From NCBI GenBank assembly GCA_019187105.1, contig JABAQM010000001.1, positions 1,798,001 to 1,862,000 on the forward strand: DNA of 64,000 bases, read 5' to 3'. This DNA is from Fimbriimonadaceae bacterium. GTDB taxonomy: Bacteria > Armatimonadota > Fimbriimonadia > Fimbriimonadales > Fimbriimonadaceae. The translations under genes and the position numbers were made by a program. The notes beneath the pieces were generated by a model. It had not been told where the DNA came from. It searched no databases and worked only from the letters and a program-made list of their open reading frames with translations. Every line of letters starts with the position of its first letter. Within the stretch, counting starts at the first letter, position 1. Of this stretch, positions 1,722 through 38,351 are shown piece by piece.

Positions 1722-4091
1722 TTATACCTTCTGGGCCAGGGCTCGTTCGACCTGGTCGGACCCAATTGGCTCTCCGTCGGCCCGTTCGATATAGAATGCA
1801 GCGGTTCCATAGCCCGCCCATTGGCCAACTCGGGCGGCAAGCACGTTCCAACCTTCTCTCAGGATCATGTGACTGAGCCGGTAGGGCATGCCACGGCCCC
1901 GGGGGGCGGTGAATTCCAAGATTGCGGGATCTCCGGGCACGAATTGCCATCGAAAGTCCTCTTGCCGGCGGGCAGGGTCCTTTCCGTGCTCGGTCAAGAC
2001 CTCCTCCACGGTTCGGTCGCGGCTCAGCACGGCGAGCAAACCTTGGATGAAACGGGCCGCCGTAGCCTGGGGGATCGGACGGCCGGCAAAACTGACGCTG
2101 AAGACGTCGATCGCGATGTGTGGGGTCGATTGCGTCGTGCTGGCCCGCAAGCCGTGCAGGCTCAGGTCGAAGGCATAGATCACGCCAAGGATGCGGTTGA
2201 GGAGGCCGGATGCATCGGGGCAGCAGACGGTCAATTCAGACGATCCTGTCTCTGGCCTTGCCTGAAGGTCAAGGGATGGTTCGCCTTCGAGAGCCTTTCG
2301 ATAGAATCCGAAGTGTGAGTAGATCGTTGCGGAGTCGTTACTGAGCAGATAGTGGCCGGGCAGCGAGTCGACGAATTCTGCGAGCTTGGGGCCTTGGTCG
2401 TCAGGTTCTGCCGCTCGCCGCAGCCGCCTCCGGTATAGATCCGGGTCGGGGAGATCGGATGCATCGGATTCCAAGACCCACATGGTGCGGTCGTACAGCT
2501 CCTTGAGGAGGTCCTCCTGAACTGGCGTCCAGGCTTCTTCGGATACCGCGGCGATATCAGCCCACGTGAGGAGCGTCAGCATGCTGAGGCGCTCCGGCGT
2601 CCTAACGGTTTCGGCGAAGTCGTGGGCGGTGGCTTGGTGGTACACGTCGCGCAAGCGGATGACGTGCGACATCGTAAGATGCTCCCTGACCAGCCAGGCG
2701 ACGTCGTCGGCGATCGAGCGCTCCAGTCCCCATCGTTGCGAGACGTCCCGAACCAATTGTTCTCCCGTGATCGAGTGCCTCTCCCCGGGAATGGCTTTAC
2801 CGGCATCGTGCATCAGCGCCGCCAGGAACAGCACAGGGCTGGAAGCCAGATTGGCTCGAATCTCACTCAAGAAGCCTTCGGGTGGATTGTCGAGGTTCCG
2901 AACCACTCGCATCGAATGTTCATAGACGGTATAGGAATGGGAGCTGTCCGAGGGCATCAGATATCGGCAGGCTTGCAGCTCTGGGAGCATCGAAGCGAGG
3001 AGGCCGCATCGGTCAAGGGTGCGAAGCACATGCTCTCCCCGACTAATCGTCTGCAGCAACAGATTTCCTTTAGCCTTCTCCGAGCTTGGCACCTTGAAGT
3101 CGCCCGCCTCGATACCAATTTCAGCGGCGAGCGCGACCGCAACCGCAGCGTCACCCAAGGTCGGAACGTCATCAACGCGGAGCGAGCCGTTTGCCGCCCA
3201 AAGGTTTGGTCCAAGCTGAAATCGTCGGCCACGCAACTCCCGCACGGCATGCTGGTAAAGGTGGTCGTTGGACTCGAGATTCTCGGCCAGGGCCGAGGAC
3301 ATCGCCAGCATGTCGGCGCCGATGAGGTCGGCTACCTCAGCTTGTCGGGCGCGAGAAAACCGATCGTTGGCCCGCCCAGACGCCACATGGAGCAGGTTGC
3401 GGGCGCGGAGGACAGCTTCGTACGCAGCCGTGGGGCGTCGGGAGCGATCCCCGATCGCCATTCCCATCCAGTTGGCGGTATGGACGCATCTGAGTCCCCC
3501 GGCACCGACCTTTAGATCGGGCTCGACCGCGAGCGGCGTATCGTTCGTGCGCGTGCGGTCAGCTTCGCGTTCCCGCAGCTTTGCCACGAGGAAGTCGCCG
3601 GTCGGGAAGGTTTCCCAGAGCAATGCAAGCAATTGGTTCATCGGCTCCGCTTCGCCTGCCACGAGCCGAGCGTCGAGCAGGCTCGTCATGGACTCGGCAT
3701 CGAGGCCGGGAGCGTCGGCGATAAGGCGATACGCGTAGCCGACGGTGATCCCGAAGTCGTGGAAGGCGTCGTGGAGCCCACGGAAAATCAGGCGAATGGC
3801 GGAGTCGATTTCGGGGTCGTTTTCGTGGAGCGGAATGATGGTCAGATCCGCATCGCTGTAGGGCGAGAGCTCGGCTCGGCCATATCCTCCAGTGGCGACA
3901 ATGCTCATCGCCGGCAGGCCGCCGGTTTTCGCGGCCATCTCGGCGACGACGCCTCGAACGAGCTCGTCCGCCAATGCCGAGTGGGCCGAAGCCCACTCAA
4001 TGCCGCTGGAAAACGTTCGGCAGCGATCCAGCAAGGCTGCGCGATCGTGGCTCAGGCGAGCCACCAGGCGCTCATTCCCTGGTTCGGTCAT
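1722..4091 (-). CDS. glnD: [protein-PII] uridylyltransferase/uridylyl-removing enzyme-like protein
   Basis: This 789-residue protein has the GlnD layout. A nucleotidyltransferase motif lies at residues 68-83 (GGYGR, then PYSDADL). The NT/HD linker motif around 191-201 has GAGGLR. An HD phosphohydrolase domain has His-Asp at 428-429. Two ACT-like domains follow, one clear at about 616-690 and one diverged at the C-terminus. GlnD adds and removes UMP on PII proteins in response to glutamine. The reading frame stays open upstream to 4757, but the ATG at 4091 forms an ATGA overlap with the preceding gene and matches the family start. No glnB or glnK is in the window. Sharing a run with two potassium regulators is unusual. 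Confidence 0.88.
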   Translation of the reverse strand: MTEPGNERLVARLSHDRAALLDRCRTFSSGIEWASAHSALADELVRGVVAEMAAKTGGLPAMSIVATGGYGRAELSPYSDADLTIIPLHENDPEIDSAIRLIFRGLHDAFHDFGITVGYAYRLIADAPGLDAESMTSLLDARLVAGEAEPMNQLLALLWETFPTGDFLVAKLREREADRTRTNDTPLAVEPDLKVGAGGLRCVHTANWMGMAIGDRSRRPTAAYEAVLRARNLLHVASGRANDRFSRARQAEVADLIGADMLAMSSALAENLESNDHLYQHAVRELRGRRFQLGPNLWAANGSLRVDDVPTLGDAAVAVALAAEIGIEAGDFKVPSSEKAKGNLLLQTISRGEHVLRTLDRCGLLASMLPELQACRYLMPSDSSHSYTVYEHSMRVVRNLDNPPEGFLSEIRANLASSPVLFLAALMHDAGKAIPGERHSITGEQLVRDVSQRWGLERSIADDVAWLVREHLTMSHVIRLRDVYHQATAHDFAETVRTPERLSMLTLLTWADIAAVSEEAWTPVQEDLLKELYDRTMWVLESDASDLPDPDLYRRRLRRAAEPDDQGPKLAEFVDSLPGHYLLSNDSATIYSHFGFYRKALEGEPSLDLQARPETGSSELTVCCPDASGLLNRILGVIYAFDLSLHGLRASTTQSTPHIAIDVFSVSFAGRPIPQATAARFIQGLLAVLSRDRTVEEVLTEHGKDPARRQEDFRWQFVPGDPAILEFTAPRGRGMPYRLSHMILREGWNVLAARVGQWAGYGTAAFYIERADGEPIGSDQVERALAQKV

Positions 4092-6665: not shown

Positions 6666-8195
6666 ATGATCGGATTCGGCGTGGCCAAGGTGATCGCCTT
6701 GGCAGCAATCTCCGGTCAAGACCCCCCGCAAGTTACCGTCGAGGCGATTAGCAAGGAACTGGTAATCGAGTGGCGTCGCAAGAAGGTCGACCTCGACACC
6801 CGGGTCATGACCTTTGAGGATGGTGCGACCGCCTACTACGGTCCGACCGTGGTGGTGGCCGACCGAATCGTCATCGATGCGCAGAACGAAACGGGCACGG
6901 CGACCGGAAATGTGCAGGTACGGGATCCGATCGGCACTTTGACGTGCTCCGATTTGTACTTCGACTATCGCAACCGGTCCGGTCGTGCCCGCGGCGTCGA
7001 CGTCGTCGTGGACGGCGCCAGGCTACGGATCAAGTCGGTCGACATCAACCCGATCCGCTGGGAAGTATCGGAGGTACGGGCAGGGCTTTTTGGCAATATT
7101 GCGCCGCACTGGGAAATCGGCAGTCCCAAGGTTACGCTGACCCCGGGGGCTTCGGGCACGATCCAGCGACCCGCCCTGTATGTGGACAATGTTCCGAAGA
7201 TCGTGTTGCCCTCGACGAAGTTCAGCCTGGACCGCCGGGCCACGGGATTGCGACCACCGTCCGTCAGTCTCCGCGACGGCAAGATTGGCGTCACGACTTT
7301 CAATAGCCTGCTGATCACGGCTCAGAGCGCGGTTTCCTTCTACAATCGCTTCGCCAAGGGCCAGCTGCCTTCGACCTCGCTGGAATACACGTGGAGTTCG
7401 GTGCCCGCGGGCCGGGCGGAGTCGTTAATCGCTCCGCGGTCCGACCTCGACGAGCGTTTTGTCGATTCGTATGTCGATAACATCACGGTACCGAGCCGAC
7501 AGGTCGAGCTGGATCAGCTGCGGGCTCCAAGGCAGTCGATCGGAATCGGCACGGCTTGGACCGTGGGGACTTCGGGGAGGCCGGTCGATTCTTCGGATAT
7601 CTCGAAACTGTACGAGGCAACAGTCGAGGTGGGCGACGACCTGGGCTTCGCGGGCGGCTACGCACAGGGAAGGATTCAACGCATTCGTCCAGACCGGCAC
7701 ACCAGCTTTCTGACCCGCGGCAACTTCCTCGGCACGCTGACGAGCGATCCCTTCCCGATCGGTAAGAACCTGACGGGTCTGCTACGGCTGGACGGTGGTG
7801 TGTATTTGGCGGGCTCTACAAAATTTGGTTGGGCACGCGGGCTGGGCGCGGTGGACTGGCGACCACATCCCAATCTATCGCTTTCGGCGGGCTACGCCGG
7901 TACCGGAAGCTCCGGGACGATGCAGTTTGCGTTTGACGGCGTAAGGACGGGACACGCTTTCCTTTCCAGGCTCGACATGCGGTCGGGGCCGTATGCCGCC
8001 GGCGTCATCCTCAAGTTCGATCCGCGAACGAGAAAGATTTTTGATCATCAATACCAGTTCAGCTTCTTTGCCGGGGCGTTCGAACCTTTCTTGGTGCTTC
8101 GCCAGAATCCGAAGACGGTGACGTTCGGTGTTCGTCTCCGGCTGGACAGTTTAATTCGACGTTTGCAGAACCGCGACTTTGTTCGTGGACGTTGA
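6666..8195 (+). CDS. LptD/OstA-like outer-membrane protein
   Basis: This 509-residue protein has a probable signal peptide (residues 1-18). An OstA/LptA-like beta-jellyroll region follows at about 45-120: a pattern of G-A-T-A-Y-Y-G-P, a V-V-A-D-R-I strand, then a G-T-A-T-G-N-V strand. This fold binds lipopolysaccharide-like lipids. The remainder (about 170-509) is rich in alternating hydrophobic strands and Gly/Tyr/Phe, as in beta-barrels, and ends in a charged tail. It is shorter than the roughly 780-residue E. coli LptD and lacks the usual LptD cysteines. It may be a reduced lipid-assembly porin or only related in the N-domain. It stands alone, divergent from the sigma factor. Confidence 0.6.
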   Translation: MIGFGVAKVIALAAISGQDPPQVTVEAISKELVIEWRRKKVDLDTRVMTFEDGATAYYGPTVVVADRIVIDAQNETGTATGNVQVRDPIGTLTCSDLYFDYRNRSGRARGVDVVVDGARLRIKSVDINPIRWEVSEVRAGLFGNIAPHWEIGSPKVTLTPGASGTIQRPALYVDNVPKIVLPSTKFSLDRRATGLRPPSVSLRDGKIGVTTFNSLLITAQSAVSFYNRFAKGQLPSTSLEYTWSSVPAGRAESLIAPRSDLDERFVDSYVDNITVPSRQVELDQLRAPRQSIGIGTAWTVGTSGRPVDSSDISKLYEATVEVGDDLGFAGGYAQGRIQRIRPDRHTSFLTRGNFLGTLTSDPFPIGKNLTGLLRLDGGVYLAGSTKFGWARGLGAVDWRPHPNLSLSAGYAGTGSSGTMQFAFDGVRTGHAFLSRLDMRSGPYAAGVILKFDPRTRKIFDHQYQFSFFAGAFEPFLVLRQNPKTVTFGVRLRLDSLIRRLQNRDFVRGR

Positions 8196-8222: not shown

Positions 8223-10151
8223 ATGGTCTACCGACTCAACGAGGCCGCTTGCCGCAATTTGGAGGTTGGCTCTCGCCGCGAATGGCTGCTGACCAACGGG
8301 ATTGGGGGCTTTGCCATGGGGACCGCGAGTGGGGCCAACACCAGGCGGTATCACGGGCTCTTGGTTGCGGCAATCCACCCGCCTGCCCACCGGATGGTGC
8401 TTCTGGCCAATGTAGAGGCCTTCATTGAAACGGACGGCCTTCCGATCGGGCTAAGCACCAACTTTTACCAGGGAAGCGTGTATCCGGAAGGGTATCAATT
8501 TTTGGATTCCTTTGCCGTCGGCGATCATGCCGAGTGGAACTTCCGCGTGCAGGGGGCCAAAGTAAGGAAGCGCATTGGATTACACCAGGGCGTCAACGCG
8601 GTTACGCTGGCCTTTGACAACACCGGAGACCGACCGATTGCGCTGACCCTGAGACCGCTGGTTTGTCACAAGTACTACCACGACAACTTTCGGGTCCACG
8701 ACGGCTATCCGCACGTTCTCGCTTTCCCACGAGAGCGATCCTTGGTCGAGCACGATGGAATACCGATCAACATCGCTCACCCGGGAGCGCAGCGGGCGCC
8801 CTCATCTGGCTGGTACTACCGGTTTCTGTTCGATCGGGAAATCGAACGGGGGCTGGACGGTCGGGATGACCTCTTTTGTCCCTGTGAACTGCGTTATGAG
8901 CTCTCCCCCGGAGAGGGAGCAACGATCGTGGTTGGCGATGAGGACCTGCCTGGGCCAATGCAGTTCTCAGATTTGTCGGCGCCTGCGGGGCCGCCGGATA
9001 CGGAGGCGGTACTTGGCGATGCCACCCGCTACTTCTTGGTCAAGGCGGGCGACCGGTCCACCGTCATTGCGGGCTATCCATGGTTTACGGATTGGGGCCG
9101 CGATACGATGATCGCCTTGCCCGGGCTTTGCGTCTGCATGGGCCGGTTGGCGGAGGCGAAGGACATCCTCGATTCGTTCGCGGGTGTGATGAATCAGGGC
9201 TTGATACCCAACCGGTTCCTCGAGTTGGATCGTGAGCCGGAGTACAACACGGTCGATGCGACGCTGTGGTTCGCGAATGCGGTGTATGAGGTGTTGCGGA
9301 CGGAATGGGATCCGGAGTTTGCGGCTCGGATGAAGCCTCGCCTCGATGAGGTGTTCGAGTGCCACACGAAAGGCACGCGCTTCGGCATCAAGGTCGACGA
9401 GGCAGATGGACTGTTAACCCAAGGCGAAGACGGGGTTCAGCTGACGTGGATGGACGCCAAGGTCGGGGAGTGGGTGATCACGCCAAGGCGCGGCAAGGCG
9501 ATCGAGATCTGCGGGCTATGGATTCATGCCCTCGGTGTGATGCAGTGGCTAGCCGACCGACTATCGGCTCCCTCGGATCGGTACGCAGCACAACGATCGA
9601 AGGCGATGGCATCGTTTCACAGGAAGTTCTGGAAATCCTCGCTCGGCTATTACTTGGATGTTGCCGACCCCGACGATGCCTCGCTGCGACCCAATCAGAT
9701 GATTCCGTTTTCTTTGGAATTCGGTCCGGCGCCGACCGAGGATTCCAGGTCCGCGCTAAAAGTCGTTACTCGAGAGCTGCTGACGCCGGTCGGCTTGCGG
9801 ACCCTTGCCCCGTCCGACACGATGTATTGCCCGCGATTTGAGGGGCCGCTAAGGGATCGCGATGCGGCGTATCACCAGGGAACCGTTTGGCCGTGGCTGC
9901 TGGGTCCATTCTGGATGGCCCATATTCGGATGACCGGCGATACGAAGGAGCCAAGGCGGCACCTTAAGAAGGTTGTCGAAAGTCTGCACGAGTGTGGCTT
10001 GGGGGGCTTTTCGGAAGTGTATGACGGCGACGAACCGCGACGACCAGGGGGATGTCCCTGGCAAGCCTGGAACATAGCCGAGATCCTCAGGGTTTGGAGA
10101 CTGTGCAACGAGATGGCATCCGCAAGGCCTTCGGATTTAATCCACTCTTAA
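8223..10151 (+). CDS. Glycogen debranching enzyme, amylo-alpha-1,6-glucosidase (GDE_C type)
   Basis: This protein of about 642 residues has an N-terminal GDE_N domain, beginning near residue 15 with a WLLTNGIGGFA-type motif and then RRYHGLL. It also has a C-terminal (alpha/alpha)6-barrel GDE_C domain from about 280. The segment PWFTDWGRDTMIALPG carries the conserved GRD motif, and YHQGTVWPW lies near residue 546. The family hydrolyses alpha-1,6 branch points in glycogen or other alpha-glucans in the cytosol. No other glycogen genes are adjacent. The start is uncertain: a GTG at 8217 is two codons upstream and has an AGG-containing ribosome site, while the ATG at 8223 sits directly after a G-rich run. 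Confidence 0.9.
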   Translation: MVYRLNEAACRNLEVGSRREWLLTNGIGGFAMGTASGANTRRYHGLLVAAIHPPAHRMVLLANVEAFIETDGLPIGLSTNFYQGSVYPEGYQFLDSFAVGDHAEWNFRVQGAKVRKRIGLHQGVNAVTLAFDNTGDRPIALTLRPLVCHKYYHDNFRVHDGYPHVLAFPRERSLVEHDGIPINIAHPGAQRAPSSGWYYRFLFDREIERGLDGRDDLFCPCELRYELSPGEGATIVVGDEDLPGPMQFSDLSAPAGPPDTEAVLGDATRYFLVKAGDRSTVIAGYPWFTDWGRDTMIALPGLCVCMGRLAEAKDILDSFAGVMNQGLIPNRFLELDREPEYNTVDATLWFANAVYEVLRTEWDPEFAARMKPRLDEVFECHTKGTRFGIKVDEADGLLTQGEDGVQLTWMDAKVGEWVITPRRGKAIEICGLWIHALGVMQWLADRLSAPSDRYAAQRSKAMASFHRKFWKSSLGYYLDVADPDDASLRPNQMIPFSLEFGPAPTEDSRSALKVVTRELLTPVGLRTLAPSDTMYCPRFEGPLRDRDAAYHQGTVWPWLLGPFWMAHIRMTGDTKEPRRHLKKVVESLHECGLGGFSEVYDGDEPRRPGGCPWQAWNIAEILRVWRLCNEMASARPSDLIHS

Positions 10152-10251
10152 CCCGGCGGGGGAAGAATCAATCGGGGAGCACGAGAACATCGGAAGTTCC
10201 CAAGCATTGGCGACGAGTCAGATCGGTTGGCCCTTGGTACGTCTAGGTCGG

Positions 10252-10282
10252 GCAAAAAATTTTGCTCATTGGACTGTTGACA
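10252..10282 (+). promoter_or_regulatory. Palindrome plus TTGACA box upstream of secreted protein gene
   Basis: The 216-base gap 10152-10367 contains a GCAAAA-AA-TTTTGC palindrome at 10252-10265. A perfect TTGACA hexamer follows at 10277-10282. No convincing -10 hexamer follows at 17 bases, so this is only a candidate promoter/operator. Nothing else recognisable is in this gap. Confidence 0.3.
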
Positions 10283-10367
10283 GCGGTGCGATCCTTGATC
10301 CAACTCTGCCACAATTCTGGTGGACCTGTTCTGGCTCCCAGAGCCGAAATTCTTAACGAGGAGAGAT

Positions 10368-29283: not shown

Positions 29284-30594
29284 ATGGCTAGAACCGTGGA
29301 GCGACGCGATCATTGTTGTTTGTGTGGAAAGTCGAAGGAGCAGGTTAAGAGCAAGCTCATCGTCGGTCTGCACGGCGCCGTCTGTGCTGACTGCATCGAC
29401 CTGTGCAACGACATTCTTCAGAACGACGTGGACAAGGTGCCGGCAGCCGAGCCGGCGCTGCCCAAAGCGAGACGAGGAGCCGCCGCGCCGGCCGACTTGC
29501 TGGCGGGGTCGAAGGTGCCCAAGCCCAAGGAGATCGTCCAGTTCCTGGATCGCTATGTGATCGGCCAGGATTCGGCCAAGCGGGCGATGTCGGTGGCGGT
29601 TTACAACCACTACAAGCGGATCAACGACGCCAAGAAGGATGATGTCGAGCTCCAGAAGAGCAACATCCTCATGGTCGGACCAACCGGGTCGGGTAAGACG
29701 CTTCTGGCTCAGACGCTGGCAAGAATGCTGGAGGTCCCGTTCGCGATTGCGGATGCCACCACGCTGACGGAAGCCGGCTATGTGGGTGAGGATGTCGAGA
29801 ACATCCTGCTCAAGCTTTACCAGGCGGCCGAGGCGATGGACGCCAAGCGCGCCAAGGAGCTTTGCGAGCGCGGCATCATCTACGTCGACGAAATCGACAA
29901 GATCGGCCGCAAGAGCGAGAACCCGTCGATCACCCGCGACGTGAGCGGCGAGGGCGTTCAGCAGGCGCTCCTGAAGATTTTGGAAGGCACGACCGCCAAC
30001 GTTCCGCCGAGCGGCGGCCGCAAGCATCCGCAGCAGGAATACATCCAGGTCGACACGTCGAACGTGCTGTTCGTCTGCGGCGGAGCCTTCGAGGGCCTCG
30101 AGGAGATCATCCTGCGTCGCCAGCGCGAGAACGTCATGGGCTTCCGCGCCGATGTGCAGAGCAAGGAAGAGCGCAAGAAGGACATCCTGAGCAAGGTGTT
30201 GCCGGAAGATCTCTTGAAGTACGGCCTTATTCCCGAGTTCATCGGACGGCTTCCCGTCGTTACGACGCTCGACCAGCTGGATCAGGAGACGCTGGTGCGG
30301 ATCCTAACCGAACCGCGCAACGCGCTCATCAAGCAGTATGCGAAGTTTTTCGAACTGGACGGCGTGGAGCTCGAGTTCCACCCGGCTGCGCTGGAGGAAA
30401 TCGCTTCCGAGGCGCTCAAGCGCAAGACCGGCGCCCGCGCGCTGCGTGCGATCATCGAGCAGGTGATGCTCGAGGTGATGTTTGAAGTCCCGAGCAACGA
30501 GTCGATCAAGAAGGTCGTGGTGCCGGAAGGCATCTTCACCGAATCGCGCCAGCCGATCCTATTGACGGAAGAGCAGCTCAAGCAGGCGAGCTAG
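29284..30594 (+). CDS. clpX: ATP-dependent Clp protease ATP-binding subunit ClpX
   Basis: This 436-residue protein has a zinc-binding N-domain with Cys at 11, 14, 34 and 37. Walker A GPTGSGKT is at 132-139, Walker B is in [10 protein letters not shown], and an [19 protein letters not shown]-like segment and sensor/arginine motifs follow. It unfolds tagged proteins and feeds ClpP. The gene is intact. Its last 78 bases (30517-30594) are repeated, with only synonymous changes apart from the first codon, at 32736-32813, which marks an insertion boundary. Confidence 0.97.
30517..30594 (+). repeat. clpX 3' end, copy A of a 78-bp direct repeat
   Basis: This is the native terminal 25 codons and stop of clpX. 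It matches 32736-32813 in the same orientation at 73 of 78 positions. The four differences after the first codon are all at third positions and silent. Confidence 0.95.
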
Positions 30595-30657
30595 TCGAAA
30601 CCCCGAGTTTTGCGTAGAAATTGGTGGAAGCTCCTGTAAAATGGACACAGGAGAGCA

Positions 30658-32676
30658 ATGCGTACTTCCATTACTCGCGTACTGTCACCTTTGCTGGCCG
30701 CTGCGGCTGTTAGCTGCTTCGCTGAAGGTCCGCCCGTCCCCCGTCCGGATGCCTTTGCCATGCGCGACGGCGTAATACAATCCTTCAAGACTCTGGCGAA
30801 TGACAAAGACCCTGATCCCTACGATGTTTTGACCGTCAAGTCGGTCACCCAGCCTGCGCATGGGCAAGTAACGATCGACTCAAGCAAGCGCTTTATTCGG
30901 GTCGAACCCAACGCCGGCTTTAAGGGCAACCTTGACTTTCAGTATCAGGTGACCGATGGCAAATACACGGTGGCTAGCTCGGTCACGGTCGAAGTCGTCC
31001 CCCTGCCGATCCAGTTTCAGTTCACCATCTTTGATTTTGAAGAGCCCTTTTATACGAATGACTCGGCTCCGACACTAGACGGCGGCACGTTGTTATGTGC
31101 AACGAGGCAGTCCGACAAGGTAGGCCTCTTGATTCGGCTGGACTCTGCGGGTCAGGAACTTTGGCGTAAGGTTGGAGCCGGTGGACAGGTGGTCGATGAG
31201 ATGCCTTCTGGCGATATCGTAATCGCAGGCGCCGGCTCAGATAAGTCTGTAAGCGTTACGATCCTCGATCAAGTCGGTAACGTTAAGCTAACAAAGGAAG
31301 TTCTAGCTGGTGGGACCAGAGAGCATGTTAGTGATCTGAAGGCCAGCTCACATGGAATCTTTATAGCCTGTCGGCGAACCCATATCGACTTTGAGAACCA
31401 AGGCTATGCTGTCCTATGCCTTTCAAGTAGTGCAACGTTAAAGTGGCATCGATACGAGCACTACAATGGCTCCTACTACTACCCGACCGCGATAACGATC
31501 GATTCGAATGGTAACTCTGTTGTCTTTGGGTACCATGTTGACAGCAACAGCGGATACCTTCCGTTTGCAGCACGATTTGATCAAGACGGAAACCAGAGGT
31601 ATTCCAAGTTCTTTGGAGGTTATCCATGGAATAGAAATGAAATTGGTACAAGAGATGTTGCCTTTGATGCGAACTCGAACAATTTAGTCCTAACGGTTGA
31701 ACGGCAGGATGACGACGATCTTCCAATTTACACCACTCTGCATAAGGTTAGCGAATCTGGAAATATTCTCGGAACCTTGAGGATCTTCGAGCCGATCGAG
31801 ACCGACAGTGCCAGGATGGCCATAGGAACTGGCGGTGACATTATCGTCGCCGCGCGGGACAGGAAAAGTCCCGACGGACTCTACTGGGTGGGCCGGGTAG
31901 CACGGAATCTTGATCGTGTGAAGTGGCAACGTAGTTTTAGCAATGGTCACCATACAGCGATAACCGCGCCAACGGTTGTACATGATGGATTGAATAGCGC
32001 GATGATCGGCGTTTTTGACTACCGGTTTCCCGAAACCAGGGTGGCAACGTGGTGCCTTCGGGATTCCGATGGGCTACTGCTAGGATGCGAGGAGGCAGTG
32101 GCAGTTATGCCGGGAACCGTTCGCAATGTTGCTCTGGCCAAGAATGTGGTTCAAACTTCCGTAATCACCGAGAATCAGAATAGTGACCATTACTCGGCAG
32201 TATGGTCGGCGAAACCACGATGGCCTAGTTCCGTGCTGAGTTATGCGTTGTTTGGACTTCGGCCCTTCTATGGAAACTTAGAGTCGCTGAAGCGACCGGA
32301 CTATGACAGCATGCTGCTTGGTTCGGCTCCAATGTCTGGCCTTGGCAAGTACTCGCCACCGAGATCAATGGAGGTGGCACTTAGGCTGAACCAATCTGCT
32401 TTTAGTATTTTGGAGACTCGGTTTCGGGTGATGGCAGATCGGAATACTCTTCGAATGCGAGTGACCCCGTACGACTTTGATGTCAAGAAATTCTGGTCCC
32501 AGGATAGCGTAGAACTCCCGCTCTCGGATATCTACGCCTTCTACCGACCCACATTTGCCGACCCCGCACGGTTTCAGGATAGCCAATCGCAGGTCCGACT
32601 GCGGCTGGAGTTCATCGGCCTACCCCAAGACATAGGTTGGGTCGATATCGATGAGGTCCATATCGAGGGATTCTAG
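30658..32676 (+). CDS. Secreted protein: cadherin-like/Ig domain plus beta-propeller-like repeats
   Basis: This 672-residue protein has a signal peptide (about 1-22). A domain at 28-117 matches the bacterial Ig/cadherin-like pattern: NDKDPDPYDVLTV, then QPAHGQVTI, then YQVTDG. From about 120 to 480 it has repeated strand blocks with D-S-N-G-N and D-A-N-S-N motifs, like SBBP-type beta-propellers. The C-terminal 190 residues are unclassified. An AGGAG site and a TAAAAT box (30637-30642) precede the ATG. The body (about 31100-32300) is visibly more AT-rich than clpX or pepF and uses codons such as AGA and ATA more. It lies between the two clpX 3' ends, so it is an accessory gene. Confidence 0.7.
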   Translation: MRTSITRVLSPLLAAAAVSCFAEGPPVPRPDAFAMRDGVIQSFKTLANDKDPDPYDVLTVKSVTQPAHGQVTIDSSKRFIRVEPNAGFKGNLDFQYQVTDGKYTVASSVTVEVVPLPIQFQFTIFDFEEPFYTNDSAPTLDGGTLLCATRQSDKVGLLIRLDSAGQELWRKVGAGGQVVDEMPSGDIVIAGAGSDKSVSVTILDQVGNVKLTKEVLAGGTREHVSDLKASSHGIFIACRRTHIDFENQGYAVLCLSSSATLKWHRYEHYNGSYYYPTAITIDSNGNSVVFGYHVDSNSGYLPFAARFDQDGNQRYSKFFGGYPWNRNEIGTRDVAFDANSNNLVLTVERQDDDDLPIYTTLHKVSESGNILGTLRIFEPIETDSARMAIGTGGDIIVAARDRKSPDGLYWVGRVARNLDRVKWQRSFSNGHHTAITAPTVVHDGLNSAMIGVFDYRFPETRVATWCLRDSDGLLLGCEEAVAVMPGTVRNVALAKNVVQTSVITENQNSDHYSAVWSAKPRWPSSVLSYALFGLRPFYGNLESLKRPDYDSMLLGSAPMSGLGKYSPPRSMEVALRLNQSAFSILETRFRVMADRNTLRMRVTPYDFDVKKFWSQDSVELPLSDIYAFYRPTFADPARFQDSQSQVRLRLEFIGLPQDIGWVDIDEVHIEGF

Positions 32677-32685
32677 GAAACCTAG
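32673..32685. repeat. Perfect inverted repeat CTAGG-AAA-CCTAG
   Basis: A 5-3-5 inverted repeat overlaps the stop codon of the 672-residue protein gene, 51 bases before the clpX remnant. It is too short for an effective terminator and lacks a T tract. It may mark the junction region. Confidence 0.5.
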
Positions 32686-32735
32686 TCCGGGTTAGGAGGA
32701 ACGGCGATCAATGGCTGGTGTTTGCGTGTTAACCC

Positions 32736-32813
32736 ATGGTGCCGGAAGGGATCTTCACGGAATCGCGCCAGCCGATCCTATTGACCGAAGAGCAGCTCAA
32801 GCAGGCCAGCTAG
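32736..32813 (+). pseudogene. Displaced, diverged clpX 3' end (copy B)
   Basis: This segment encodes the last 25 residues of ClpX and a TAG stop, in the same orientation as clpX but 2.2 kb downstream, with no clpX body before it. Five of 78 bases differ from the native end: the first codon is ATG instead of GTG, and there are silent changes at a Gly, two Thr and an Ala codon. Homology stops abruptly on both sides. Silent-only divergence means the copy spent time as part of a working clpX in another lineage. It is best read as the left end of an imported segment. Confidence 0.92.
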
Positions 32814-32886
32814 CGGCGTAGGCGCCGGGGTGGTTTGCCCACCTTGGGCGTAAGTTTCCTCTGATGCCTTCGGGTAGAGTAGATAT

Positions 32887-34163
32887 ATGCTTGCGCGATC
32901 CTCGACAGGAATCTTGCTGAGCTGGTTGTTATCCAGGTTTCTGCTCAGAATCGCGTCCAGTTCAATGAAACGACCCGGGTCAAAGGGATGGAGCCCGTTG
33001 CCGCAGGGCAGTCACCGACTCGCCAGGCTGCAACCTATAGCGTAACGGCAATCTATACTCCGCCGTCAGGACACTCGGTGGTCGAATACATCTGGCAGAA
33101 CAAAATATCCACCCGACCCCGGGCAAGGCATCCTCGATGGCAGGCTTGCCGTGGTCTCGAATATTTACAGTCCCAGTGCGACCGCACGGGCGTTTAAGCC
33201 TGGTGAGTACGAGGCAGTATGCGGAATCCGGTTGCAGTATCCTGACGGCTCGACGGACCTATCGGCCAACCCAGCGAGTTCGTTGTTGGGACTTGCGCGG
33301 CGATCGGAGGCGTCCTTAACGTTACGGTTCAAGGCGCGGCGCATCCTACTTACGAACAGGATCTCGGTTTGCCAACGGGCGCATACTATCTACAATACTT
33401 CAATTACTCCCACGCTGCGCCTCGTCCACCTGCTGCTCAGGTAACTCAGTATGCATACTGCTCGGTTGATACGCAGCCTGCGGATACGGTTGTTTCGTGG
33501 ACTATACCTTCTTCCTTATACAGCCTTATCATCGAGGAGATAGACGAGAATAGCCATCTTATTGATTTGTCAGCCGAAACGGCCGTGAAGGATGCGGAGG
33601 TTCGTGCCAATTATGCGCTAAGTTTTTTGGCGGATGACGGCGTAATGTATTTCGGTGAAGCAATCGACATAACCACTGAAGTGCCCCAAGGTTTGTTGTC
33701 GAGTCATATGAAGGTCAGACGGTTCTCTGGGCACCTGCCATCCGCACTAACCCTACCCGCAGTTTTCGAACAGGAAAGGTTGCTTTTTCCGAACGATCCC
33801 GATACATGGCAATGTGGTCGCGAATATAAGTATAAGCTTGTCGATACGTTTGGCGAAGACTGCCCTGGCGTTAGAATACAGGAGAGGTATACGACGCCAA
33901 TACCTAGCGGCTTTCATGCTAACGGCGTAAGTGAGTTTTGGATAACAGTACTAGATCCTGCAAACAAGCGCGCTTGGTTCCACGATACCGACTGGATTCG
34001 ATACGCCTGGCCACCGAGCACTAACCAGCCGCCGAATATCGTGTTGCAGCATCAATACTACGCCGGGAATACGGCAACGACCGGGACGAGCGGTGTTCCA
34101 TTACAACTCTTTACTATGACGTTAATAGCTGGGAAGCCAGGTGCGGTTATCCACAGTCCTTAG
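32887..34163 (+). pseudogene. Frameshifted gene for a secreted protein of unknown function
   Basis: Coding potential runs along this stretch but changes frame. One frame gives a hydrophobic leader from an ATG at 32887. A second carries ATYSVTAIYTPPSGHSVVEY to about 33105. A third reading (frame of 33151) continues GILDGRLAVVSNIYS to about 33245. The earlier frame then resumes with FVVGTCAAIGGVLNVTV and stays open to the TAG at 34163. At least two, perhaps three, shifts of one base are needed to join these. The longest intact piece is about 264 residues from 33369. No known domain is recognised. Base composition is AT-richer than the flanks. It sits between the clpX and pepF remnants. Sequencing error cannot be excluded. 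Confidence 0.65.
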
Positions 34164-34171
34164 GAGGCAAT

Positions 34172-35320
34172 ATGAATTCAATTGCAGTAGGTTTAATTGT
34201 GGCCACTTCCTGTGGCATTTCCACTGAGGCTTATTTGAGGCCGCTATTTCTTGACGACCTATCTCCGATTCGACTGAGCGGTATCTACGAGGCCGTGTCA
34301 AAACCTTCGATCGTGGTGAGGCCACATACCGTCGACCAGGGCACAAGCCGAGAATTCCAAACGCAGCGCTTTCGAATTCTGGACTTGGCGACTGAGGGTC
34401 GGTCGGGCGAACTTTCGGTTCTCTTCTCGCAAAGCTCAGTCAATACTTATCCGCAATTCGAGCCCGGAGCGCGGGTCCTTCTTTTCCTCGCGCCCAAAGT
34501 GAACGGGCGACTATCGGTTCGCAACGGTTCGCGCCAAGGTTGGGAGGATGGTGTGGATTGGCATGCTGCGGAAGAGGATGACGGTTGCGCATGGTCTTGG
34601 CTCCCTATAATGGCGACGAAAATTCCTGCGGGCCAGACCCCAGAAGTACGCCTGTTTCGGTGTTTGTTGGAGGAAATAGCCGTTGCGAGTGAGGCAAACA
34701 AGAATCGCATTCTTGAGTTTTTTCACCAATGCCGTTACCCCGGAGCGAAGGCACACTTCCGTTCGAAGGGTGGTGAGGCGACCGAATTTCACGAAGCCGT
34801 ACGGACGCTCGCGGCAAAAGTCGATGGCGAAACGTCGGCAAGGCTCCTTTGGCTCCTCAACGATTGGTGCATTCGCGGATCGGCACGGTGGTACCTCGAT
34901 GCCGTTATGAAGCTCGCATCGGCGCCGACCGTTTTCGCTTCCTGGGTGGAGATTCCGCCCGTCAGATTTTGGGAGGAGCCGGACCCGCTGACGGGCAAGG
35001 GTCGATCCTTCGAGTTGCCTAATCCCAACGATTGGGCGGTGGTTGCTGCCACAAGTAAGAACTTGAAGGTAACAGCTTTCGTTCTCTCGCAGCTGGGTTT
35101 CATGAAACCCGATGAGGCTCATGAAAAGCTGATGGCGCCGCTGCTGGATAGTCCAGATGCGGAGATCCGCTACTACCTTGCGCGCCATTACGCGATGGCG
35201 CAGGACGTCCCAGAGCACCAACCCAGCCGAACGGTTCTCACCGAACCAAGATTCGTTATCGAATATAGCGGCCTCCAAGAGGCCGTCGCATTCTGGAAAA
35301 ACTACTGGAAAGTCGAATAA
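34172..35320 (+). CDS. Predicted secreted protein of unknown function
   Basis: The ATG at 34172 follows a strong TAGGAGG site that overlaps the stop of the frameshifted gene upstream, so the two were probably translationally coupled. The 382-residue product has an N-terminal signal-like segment (about 1-19). A strand-rich domain contains a G-A-R-V-L-L-F-L segment near residue 100. A helical C-terminal half is rich in Trp. I recognise no family. It lies inside the segment bounded by the clpX and pepF remnants, so it is an accessory gene, probably acquired from a related strain with its neighbour. Confidence 0.6.
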   Translation: MNSIAVGLIVATSCGISTEAYLRPLFLDDLSPIRLSGIYEAVSKPSIVVRPHTVDQGTSREFQTQRFRILDLATEGRSGELSVLFSQSSVNTYPQFEPGARVLLFLAPKVNGRLSVRNGSRQGWEDGVDWHAAEEDDGCAWSWLPIMATKIPAGQTPEVRLFRCLLEEIAVASEANKNRILEFFHQCRYPGAKAHFRSKGGEATEFHEAVRTLAAKVDGETSARLLWLLNDWCIRGSARWYLDAVMKLASAPTVFASWVEIPPVRFWEEPDPLTGKGRSFELPNPNDWAVVAATSKNLKVTAFVLSQLGFMKPDEAHEKLMAPLLDSPDAEIRYYLARHYAMAQDVPEHQPSRTVLTEPRFVIEYSGLQEAVAFWKNYWKVE

Positions 35321-35362
35321 AGATGGCTCAAGACCATCCTCTGTCCGCCCTCTGAGATTGGA

Positions 35363-35494
35363 TTACCCGCTGACCCGTGCCAATTCCGCCTCCATGGCTC
35401 CAACCACATCCTTCATCGTCGCCCCGTCGATCGCAAACCGAGCCCCGCGGCAGCGAACAGCTCCGGCAGCAGTCGGCTGCCGCCAAGGCGCCAG
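35363..35494 (-). pseudogene. Displaced, decayed pepF 3' end
   Basis: On the minus strand this stretch encodes a variant of the last roughly 43 residues of PepF and its stop (TAA instead of TAG). It aligns with 36521-36650 at about 80 percent identity by eye. The last codons differ mostly silently; two changes, Thr to Ala and Thr to Ser, are conservative. A two-base deletion and a one-base insertion further in break the frame. The full pepF gene lies 1 kb downstream in the same orientation. It forms the right end of the segment whose left end is the clpX remnant. Confidence 0.85.
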
Positions 35495-35507
35495 GTAGCA
35501 TCGCCTC

Positions 35508-36524
35508 ATGCGGTGGCGAGTTGCGTTTCTTTCGGCATCAATGATCCTAGCCGCTCATGCTGCAGCGGATGCCTTGATGGTCTCGGCGAGAGACCTGACC
35601 GATAAGGAGAAGGACTGGTACACACAGGCGTTCCTGGCTACGGGAGCGACCAGAGCCGAGGTGTTTGCCAAGCTGTCGAAGGAAGTCACCGAGGCCGGCG
35701 GCGTGGTCTTTCTCCGTGGCGAGACCATCATGATCGCGTCGCCCTCGCTTGCAAAGCTAAAGGCTAAGGAGCGGAGGCTCTCCGGCTATGAAGCCGTGCC
35801 CAAACTCTTCAGCAGCGGCAGCCCGATGAAGAAGTTCGGCGACCTACCCAAGGAGCTTCAGGAGATCGTTACCGATCTGACCAGCCAGATCAAGAAGCCC
35901 GAAGGCAAAACCTTTATCCCCGAACAAGGAACCGCGGTGTTATTCGGTGCGGGTTTCCAATGCCGGCTTACCGATGGCGACAAGGTGATCGACTTTGTGA
36001 GGAGCCCTGCGGACCATTCAGAGCATTCGAACCAGCTTGCCGCCGCGCCGCTTGCATTCGACACGAGGAACCCAAGTCCAGAGGAGCAAGCCCTGAGGGA
36101 CGATTCGATCAATGGTGACCGGCTCATTGGACCGAAAATGCAACTCTCGATCATCGGGAGGAACCGGGCAGGTCAGGCCAAGAGCTTCGCCGACTTTTGG
36201 GAGGAGTTTGCCAAGTGGGAGGCGGACTTCGAAACCAAAACCGCGGCGGCAAGGCGCTTGGCCATTCAGGCAGCCGCCATCGCATCCGGCGCGCCAGATT
36301 GGATGAAGGAAGATCATCAGGGCAAGCGCATCAGCGAACTGCCTCCGGAGATGAAGGCAGAGCTGGAAGCATGGGTAAAAAAACGGATGTCCTTGTACGG
36401 ACTTAAGAACGACGCGGAAGTGAACGCGTTCCTTAGCCGAGCCACCGTATCGAGCCAGTTGCCGAGGGTGACCGTGACCTATGGATTGCCCAAGCCGTAC
36501 GGCGCCGCCGGCGCGGGCTTCTAG
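35508..36524 (+). CDS. Predicted secreted protein of unknown function
   Basis: The ATG at 35508 lies only 13 bases after the pepF remnant. The 338-residue product has a signal peptide (cleavage near AHAA-AD, about residue 20). It is otherwise a charged, Ala/Lys-rich soluble protein with no recognised domain and a Pro/Gly-rich C-terminus. It ends tail-to-tail with the intact pepF, sharing the bases CTAG. Composition is closer to the GC-rich flanks than that of the genes to its left. Its promoter must lie within or upstream of the remnant. Function is unknown. Confidence 0.6.
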   Translation: MRWRVAFLSASMILAAHAAADALMVSARDLTDKEKDWYTQAFLATGATRAEVFAKLSKEVTEAGGVVFLRGETIMIASPSLAKLKAKERRLSGYEAVPKLFSSGSPMKKFGDLPKELQEIVTDLTSQIKKPEGKTFIPEQGTAVLFGAGFQCRLTDGDKVIDFVRSPADHSEHSNQLAAAPLAFDTRNPSPEEQALRDDSINGDRLIGPKMQLSIIGRNRAGQAKSFADFWEEFAKWEADFETKTAAARRLAIQAAAIASGAPDWMKEDHQGKRISELPPEMKAELEAWVKKRMSLYGLKNDAEVNAFLSRATVSSQLPRVTVTYGLPKPYGAAGAGF

Positions 36525-38221
36525 CCCGTAACCCGCGCCAGTTCCGTCTCCATCGCCCCGACGACATCCTTCATCGTCGCGACGTCGAAGGCAAACCGCG
36601 CGCCAGCCGCGGCGAACAGCTCCGGCAGCGGCCGGCTGCCGCCCAGCGCCAGCGCGTGCCGGTACTGGGCGATCGCCGAGCGGCGGTCCTTCTGCGCGTT
36701 GCGCCAGACCTGAAGCGCGCCGAGCTGGGCGAGGCCGTATTCCACGTAGTACAGCGGCACAACGTGGATGTGGAGCTTGCGGTGCCACCCGTTCGCCTTG
36801 TCCTCTTCGAGGCCGGTCCAATCGACGCCGGGCATGAACCGATCCCAGAGGAGAGACCACTCGTGGTCGCAGGCTTCGCCGACGTGGGCGATATCGGGAT
36901 TGGCGTACACCCAGTGCTGGAAGGCGTCGACGACCGCCATGTAGGGCCAGAAGGTCAGGCACCGGGTGAGGTGGTCGGCAATGGCCCGGTTCGCATCGGC
37001 TGCCGAGTAGAAGCCTCCTTCGCTTTCGCTCAGATAGGGCGCAGAAAGGTGCTCCATGCTCATGGATGCGACTTCGGCAAACTCGGTGTTCACGTTCGTC
37101 AGGTGCTCCAGTCGCTGCAGTCGCGACTCATAGACATGGAAGGCATGGCCGCCTTCATGGAGCAGGGTCAGCACGTCGTCGTGAATCCCGACCGCGTTCA
37201 TGAAGATGAAGGGGGTTCGAATCTTGGAAAAGGTCTCGCAGTAGCCGCCCGGCGCCTTCCCTTTGCGATTGTCGAGGTCGAGCAGGCCGAGACGCCGCAT
37301 GTCCTGGTAGTACTGGCCGAGCACGGGATCGACCCTTTCGAACACCCTCGCCGCGCGTTCGTCGAGCTCCTGCACGTTCGCGAACGGCTTTAGCGGTGGC
37401 CGCCCGTGGGGATCGACATCGAGGTCCCAAGGTCGCAGGGAGTCGTATCCCAGTGCCTTTCGCCGCTCCTCATAGAGCCGCGTGCAGACCGGCACCACGA
37501 CTTCTTCGATCGCCTGGTGAAACGAGAAACAATCCTCCGGTGTGTAATCGAACCTCTGGAACTCTGCCCATCGAAAGGCGCGGTAGTCGCGACCGAAGTC
37601 GGCGTTTTCCGCCATCTTCAGCCGGACATCGAGAAACCGCTTCCAAAGGGCGTTGACCTTTTCACGGTCGGCCAGCTGACGGTTCGAAGCCAGCCGCCAT
37701 GCCGCTTCGCGGCGAGCACGATCAGCTTCCTGATAGATCGGCTTCAGGCCGGTGAGGGTCTTTTCCTCTCCGTCCCATTTGACGGTTTGGGCGCCCATGA
37801 TCTCATCGAACTCCATGCCGAGCTTCGACTCTTCGGCGTGCAGCGGCAAGTTGGCTTCGCGGAAGAGGGCAGCTTCGGCTCGCATATTGCGCAGCGGAAC
37901 CTCGAATCCGACCGGCTCCAACCCGGAATCCAGCAGCTTTTGCTTCAGCTTCTGTTCCCAGGCCGCCGATTGTTGCTGCGTGGTGTCCAGGTATTCGGTG
38001 AATCGCCCCTTTGCATCCTCGTCGTTCGTGTCGACCGACGTCATGACGTAGAGTCGGCTGCCCTGCTCGCGGACCTCGCTCAGGAGATCCGACCACTTCT
38101 CCAGCCACTCATCGAGGTTTCGCTGATCGAGGGCTTGCTCGGCCAAGGCGATATAGCGAGGCTCAAAATCCGCCCAGGAGCGGCTGATGAGAGGCGAGTC
38201 GGCAATTCGGTCGGCGATCAT
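36521..38221 (-). CDS. pepF: M3-family oligoendopeptidase F
   Basis: This 566-residue zinc metallopeptidase has the active-site motif HEGGH at 355-359 (HExxH). A downstream helix with N-T-E-F-A-E supplies the third zinc ligand. The length fits the M3B oligoendopeptidase F group, which cleaves peptides of roughly 5-20 residues in the cytosol. An AGGTAAGG ribosome site precedes the ATG. The tRNA-Arg gene is just upstream on the same strand, so co-transcription is possible. Its 3' end is partly duplicated at 35363-35494. Confidence 0.93.
   Translation of the reverse strand: MIADRIADSPLISRSWADFEPRYIALAEQALDQRNLDEWLEKWSDLLSEVREQGSRLYVMTSVDTNDEDAKGRFTEYLDTTQQQSAAWEQKLKQKLLDSGLEPVGFEVPLRNMRAEAALFREANLPLHAEESKLGMEFDEIMGAQTVKWDGEEKTLTGLKPIYQEADRARREAAWRLASNRQLADREKVNALWKRFLDVRLKMAENADFGRDYRAFRWAEFQRFDYTPEDCFSFHQAIEEVVVPVCTRLYEERRKALGYDSLRPWDLDVDPHGRPPLKPFANVQELDERAARVFERVDPVLGQYYQDMRRLGLLDLDNRKGKAPGGYCETFSKIRTPFIFMNAVGIHDDVLTLLHEGGHAFHVYESRLQRLEHLTNVNTEFAEVASMSMEHLSAPYLSESEGGFYSAADANRAIADHLTRCLTFWPYMAVVDAFQHWVYANPDIAHVGEACDHEWSLLWDRFMPGVDWTGLEEDKANGWHRKLHIHVVPLYYVEYGLAQLGALQVWRNAQKDRRSAIAQYRHALALGGSRPLPELFAAAGARFAFDVATMKDVVGAMETELARVTG

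Positions 38222-38275: not shown

Positions 38276-38351
<76 letters not shown>

Follow-up and report, generated by a model that had tools for sequence, protein, structure and literature searches.

Displaced gene tails suggest that two versions of one locus lie stacked between clpX and an M3-family peptidase gene in a Fimbriimonadaceae genome

Analysis of the gap between clpX and a convergent M3-family peptidase gene revealed a 2.5-kb segment (X) that is bracketed by a copy of the clpX 3′ end (clpX′) and a copy of the peptidase 3′ end (M3′). The order of the elements is clpX-A-clpX′-X-M3′-B-M3 (Table 1). The window, that is, the whole 64-kb stretch of DNA analysed, corresponds to 1.80–1.86 Mb of the 3.30-Mb chromosome contig, and the closest relatives that bear a name belong to the Armatimonadota (Fimbriimonadaceae and allied MAGs). 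The sequences of the two tails support the derivation of the outer genes and of X from two versions of one locus. In our ranking the addition of A and B on either side of an older X stands first, with about an even chance of being correct, and the import of X as one piece stands second. The direction, the mechanism and the number of the events are what we infer from this architecture.

Table 1. Features of the clpX–M3 peptidase gap, in positions of the window.
Feature	Position	Strand	Basis
Complete clpX	29284..30594	+	ORF, repeat, homologues in 58/61 family genomes
Outer copy of the repeated clpX tail (last 77 bp of clpX)	30518-30594	+	
Unit A: one intact 672-aa gene (30658-32676) and its 3′ flank	30595..32736	+	
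clpX′: displaced clpX 3′ end, 95% identical, silent differences only	32737..32813	+	
X1: broken secreted-type gene	32814..34163	+	Three-frame translation
X2: intact 382-aa gene	34172..35320	+	
M3′: displaced M3 peptidase 3′ end, ~84% identical	35363..35494	-	
Unit B: one intact 338-aa gene (35508-36524)	35495..36524	+	
Complete M3-family oligoendopeptidase gene (TIGR02289)	36521..38221	-	

The two displaced gene ends

The clpX′ copy begins inside clpX and terminates exactly at the stop codon. It is identical to the end of the complete gene at 73 of 77 nucleotides, with an E-value of 1.7e-27 in the whole-genome search. M3′ was found in the same kind of search with an E-value of 2.1e-28 and 83–84% identity over ~130 bp. 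It has the orientation of the full peptidase gene, possesses a stop codon of its own (TAA, versus TAG in the full gene) and carries two indels that shift the frame; its similarity may continue for a few bases past the limits given in Table 1. A preliminary description of this DNA had reported both copies, oriented as they would be in an intact clpX-X-M3 locus with the complete genes outside, and our analysis confirmed all of this. The name pepF, which it had given to the peptidase gene, has to be abandoned, as the gene scored above the cut-off of TIGR02289 ('M3_not_pepF') but far below that of pepF.

No similarity past the tails was detected on any side. The sequences 3′ of the two clpX stop codons are unrelated to each other, and so are those 3′ of the two M3 stop codons, which is what two versions of the locus with different cargo would lead one to expect; a tandem duplication was rejected on the same ground. 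The whole-genome search found no further copy of either tail, and within the 64-kb window the two pairs are the sole direct repeats of at least 45 nt lying within 12 kb.

Four of the 24 codons of clpX′ differ from those of clpX, each by a silent change (GGC/GGG, ACC/ACG, ACG/ACC and GCG/GCC; p = 0.004 under neutral drift). In M3′ about 15 of the ~20 changed codons are silent (p = 4e-6 under neutral drift). This indicates that both tails diverged for the most part under selection, while they belonged to functional genes. The prevalence of silent changes in both supports the assignment of the tails to a second version of the locus that evolved separately. The preliminary description had held that the clpX copy diverged while functional in another lineage, and the mainly silent changes in both tails agree with this. 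It had also called the M3 tail decayed, which is apt for the two frameshifting indels but too simple for a tail in which silent changes prevail.

Genes carried in the gap

The A gene showed matches to Big_9/cadherin-like and SBBP-type propeller families, while searches of X2 and B against Pfam, NCBIfam and PHROGs gave none. None of A, X and B matched PHROGs, and a phage origin of these parts was rejected for lack of such matches. No recombinase was found in A or B. Starts resembling signal peptides were recognized by eye in the sequences of A, X2 and B, that of A being graded as probable. Single-sequence structure predictions of X2 and B reached a pLDDT of only 38–39, too poor for use. X1, which had been described as a frameshifted gene, is indeed broken, but about three frame changes, all within its first third, are needed to read it; it is open from position 33369. 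The GC content is 52% in A, 54% in X and 59% in B, compared with 61% in clpX and 63% in the peptidase gene. The stop codon of the B gene overlaps that of the complete peptidase gene.

In the 3′ flank of A (window 32694-32736), the motif AGGAGG is followed ~11 nt later by an ATG at ~32711, and the resulting reading, MAGVCVLT, is cut at the joint with clpX′. This cut-off start could, as a weak indication, belong to the former neighbour of A, that is, to the end of an incoming fragment.

Relatives of X1 and X2 lie side by side in two other genera (G025 and G014), at loci unrelated to the clpX–M3 gap. These relatives are distant, those of X2 sharing about 24–31%. As judged from these sequences, X is a scattered accessory module, and X1-X2 seems to be a two-gene module whose first gene is prone to decay. 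The pair of G025 occupies ~8261-10312 of its locus (L224) and includes a 478-aa X1-like ORF. That of G014 occupies ~6752-8079 (L223), with only a short X1 piece before the X2-like ORF, which lies upstream of an apparent proS.

Relatives, donor and conservation of the locus

We compared the locus with 60 other genomes of the family or order, the genome studied here being the only one of its genus in the set. The DNA of the segment gave no informative match in these 60 genomes. All 24 residues encoded by clpX′ are identical to those of the native clpX, versus at most 15 of 24 for any relative, so the donor would be very close and undescribed. The preliminary description had looked to a related strain as the source; none of the 60 genomes has tails that match better together with the intervening genes, and as far as the databases reach clpX′ is closest to this genome's own clpX, an outcome that the description itself had named as speaking against its reading.

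The four silent clpX sites were also compared with 35 loci of relatives, some organisms being represented twice. The native codon was favoured at two sites and the remnant's at one, and the fourth was nearly even; this comparison was rejected as a means of finding the native clpX tail, the relatives being too distant to inform on it.

The clpP-clpX order is kept in 15 named relatives, and the order 3′ of clpX is unrelated between genera. The M3 gene is present in 13 of the 61 family genomes, including the source genome, and never stands beside clpX in the other family genomes that carry it. As relatives thus lack the clpX–M3 adjacency, the exchange hotspot proposed in the preliminary description stays hypothetical. 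A tRNA-Arg(TCT) gene, the only tRNA gene of the window, is located at 38276-38351 on the minus strand, just upstream of the M3 peptidase gene, which stands between it and the scar. Genes for tRNAs often serve as insertion sites.

Proposed insertion of A and B on both sides of an older segment

In the favoured explanation, one chromosome would carry, stacked, two versions of the clpX–M3 interval that stem from two lineages within one genus or species. Of these, the inner one, clpX′-X1-X2-M3′, would most likely be the older resident, and A and B would be newcomers of one gene each, A having arrived on a fragment with the 3′ part of clpX and B on one with the 3′ part of the peptidase gene. On one side of each fragment, the conserved gene would have served as the anchor for recombination; the other side would have been joined without homology, inside the last 77 or ~130 bp of the resident gene. 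The outcome would be an added gene, a complete anchor gene, and the old tail of the resident pushed beyond the insert.

A and B each consist of one intact gene, whereas X1 is broken and M3′ carries its two indels; this fits X as the older part without proving it, and against it X1 might have decayed after an import. ComEC and DprA families are present in the genome, which is compatible with natural transformation, and both occur in many bacteria without known competence.

The clpX–M3 gap may also be viewed, on a tentative and rather unlikely reading, as a two-sided gene-stacking site of this genus with cargo genes for secreted-type proteins. Genes would then be added singly from both ends, anchored in the last ~100 bp of the flanking gene, and every arrival would leave behind, in register and dated, the tail of the allele that preceded it.

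Comparison with known recombination systems

Homology-facilitated illegitimate recombination (HFIR) combines homologous recombination at one end with illegitimate recombination at the other, inserts about 1 kb, and as a rule involves loss, not duplication, of recipient DNA (PMC3240628). In an E. coli test of HFIR, most recombinants had a duplicated part of the anchor gene, for which a single crossover with a recircularised fragment was held responsible; duplications by HFIR or single crossover have been described in S. pneumoniae, A. baylyi, P. stutzeri and E. coli (PMC3240628). The present scar resembles HFIR in that A follows the complete clpX and B adjoins the complete M3 gene, as with a homology anchor at one end, and in that ~1 kb of foreign DNA would have been added. 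No similarity was seen across the joints; the non-homologous end in HFIR often has a microhomology of 3–10 bp. Unlike HFIR, the scar has duplicated tails with no recipient DNA lost, and occupies both sides of one gap; moreover, what is seen at clpX–M3 is only the footprint of the event. By this comparison the scar would work like HFIR or a single crossover, and would not be classical HFIR.

In Vibrio T6SS/Rhs loci, displaced effector 3′ ends and orphan immunity genes are found beyond a newly inserted module (PMC5361080). There, as proposed here, the anchor gene next to the newcomer is complete, and the former 3′ end of the resident has moved to the far side of the insert. However, the T6SS/Rhs tail is variable and the anchor protein changes, while at clpX–M3 the tail is conserved and the anchors are housekeeping genes. 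The e14 prophage of E. coli leaves a displaced 163-bp end of icd, with the gene restored (PMC6379469). The likeness is that the incoming DNA supplies a 3′ end that keeps the gene whole, with the original end lying beyond the insert. However, e14 is a 15-kb integrase-driven element, while A and B each consist of a single gene and lack a recombinase. Neisseria minimal mobile elements hold alternative cargo between conserved genes. They are similar in having, from lineage to lineage, different cargo between the same conserved genes, exchangeable through the flanks, and differ in that one cargo replaces another, both being kept at clpX–M3. Because HFIR and single-crossover duplications, the T6SS/Rhs loci and e14 place the complete gene beside the newcomer and make the displaced tail that of the older resident, we prefer the direction in which X is older.

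The scar was probably left by ordinary gene uptake. As a recombination scar it is of a known kind, and a legible one, and does not represent a new system. What distinguishes it is that it is unusually readable, in a poorly studied group: since both flanking genes left a tail, the direction, order and donor should be readable from a few sister strains. It also shows that accessory genes can join housekeeping genes without breaking them.

Alternative explanations

The preliminary description had proposed that X was imported as one piece from a relative and inserted between A and B. Its second version of the locus is retained here; the parts that lack support are X as the newcomer and a single event. 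In this explanation the resident arrangement would be clpX-A-B-M3, and one fragment, clpX′-X-M3′, would have come from a related strain. We regard this as possible, though clearly less probable than the insertion of A and B. One event would account for both tails around the same segment, and no other clear tail was found in the 1.66 Mb sampled; with displaced tails otherwise absent from that sample, two independent events in one gap would require a hotspot, a point in favour of one event. Both tails are mainly silent in their changes, and their silent divergence (4 of 24 codons in clpX′ versus 15 of 42 in M3′) does not differ significantly (p = 0.16). On the other hand, the import would need two non-homologous joins and yet land between the fragment's own home genes, and the collections searched contain no donor relative. 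The total divergence of the tails differs (p = 0.017), which leans against arrival in one piece but is not decisive, because clpX and M3 genes evolve at different rates. Visible decay is confined to M3′, where 7 of 43 codons are altered or shifted, versus 0 of 24 in clpX′ (p = 0.044); when the decay of clpX′ is predicted from that of M3′, p ranges from 0.015 to 0.30, according to the share of the M3′ change that is called decay. Tail divergence was rejected as a date for the two sides, as the overall and the silent comparisons disagree.

A single event that retained both versions is a serious rival. In it, a clpX-A-B-M3 donor and a clpX-X-M3 recipient would have recombined through pairing of the donor strand at the two outer genes, and the resident middle, with its tails, would have been kept between A and B. 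It gives the same architecture from one event, homology explains the location, and the two tails are compatible with it in their silent divergence. Multiple nearby discontinuous donor segments are reported for transformation of B. subtilis (PMC13344027). But two template switches in one event are required, and the predicted adjacency of A and B was observed nowhere; the short possible ORF after A does not continue into B when the two sides are joined across the gap. We consider this course of events quite unlikely.

Site-specific integration into gene 3′ ends, by an element that supplies a replacement gene end as e14 does in icd, would have the same-looking outcome and is very improbable. As noted above, A and B possess neither a recombinase nor a match in PHROGs; in addition, the nearest gene of the Phage_integrase family is about 0.5 Mb away, and the 77 bp of clpX and ~130 bp of M3 show no sign of a common enzyme core. 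Least probable of all is a duplication of the gene ends inside this genome followed by drift, which has in its favour that both copies lie in one genome with no outside donor known, but neutral drift would not yield 4 of 4 and 15 of 20 silent changes, and the sequence past the stop codons was not duplicated.

Displaced gene ends elsewhere in the genome

About half of the genome (1.66 Mb) was sampled with head, middle and tail probes of 1205 genes of at least 150 aa, and no other clear displaced gene tail was found there outside paralogue arrays. Among the candidates rejected, those at L132, L136, L152 and L176 were intergenic or upstream repeats or spurious ORFs, and those at L158, L198 and L199 were located in paralogue arrays. 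At L193, a 196-aa gene (2645-3235) is followed after ~60 bp by a degraded copy of its final ~60 bp (3294-3354; 61–63 bp, 81%), which is possibly a third displaced gene tail. At L144, positions 683-1032 and 2434-2783 form a 350-bp direct repeat of 96%, identical in its last ~150 bp, which spans the 5′ part of a 585-aa gene and a 111-aa fragment. From its sequence this appears to be a displaced gene head, the mirror image of the finding at clpX–M3.
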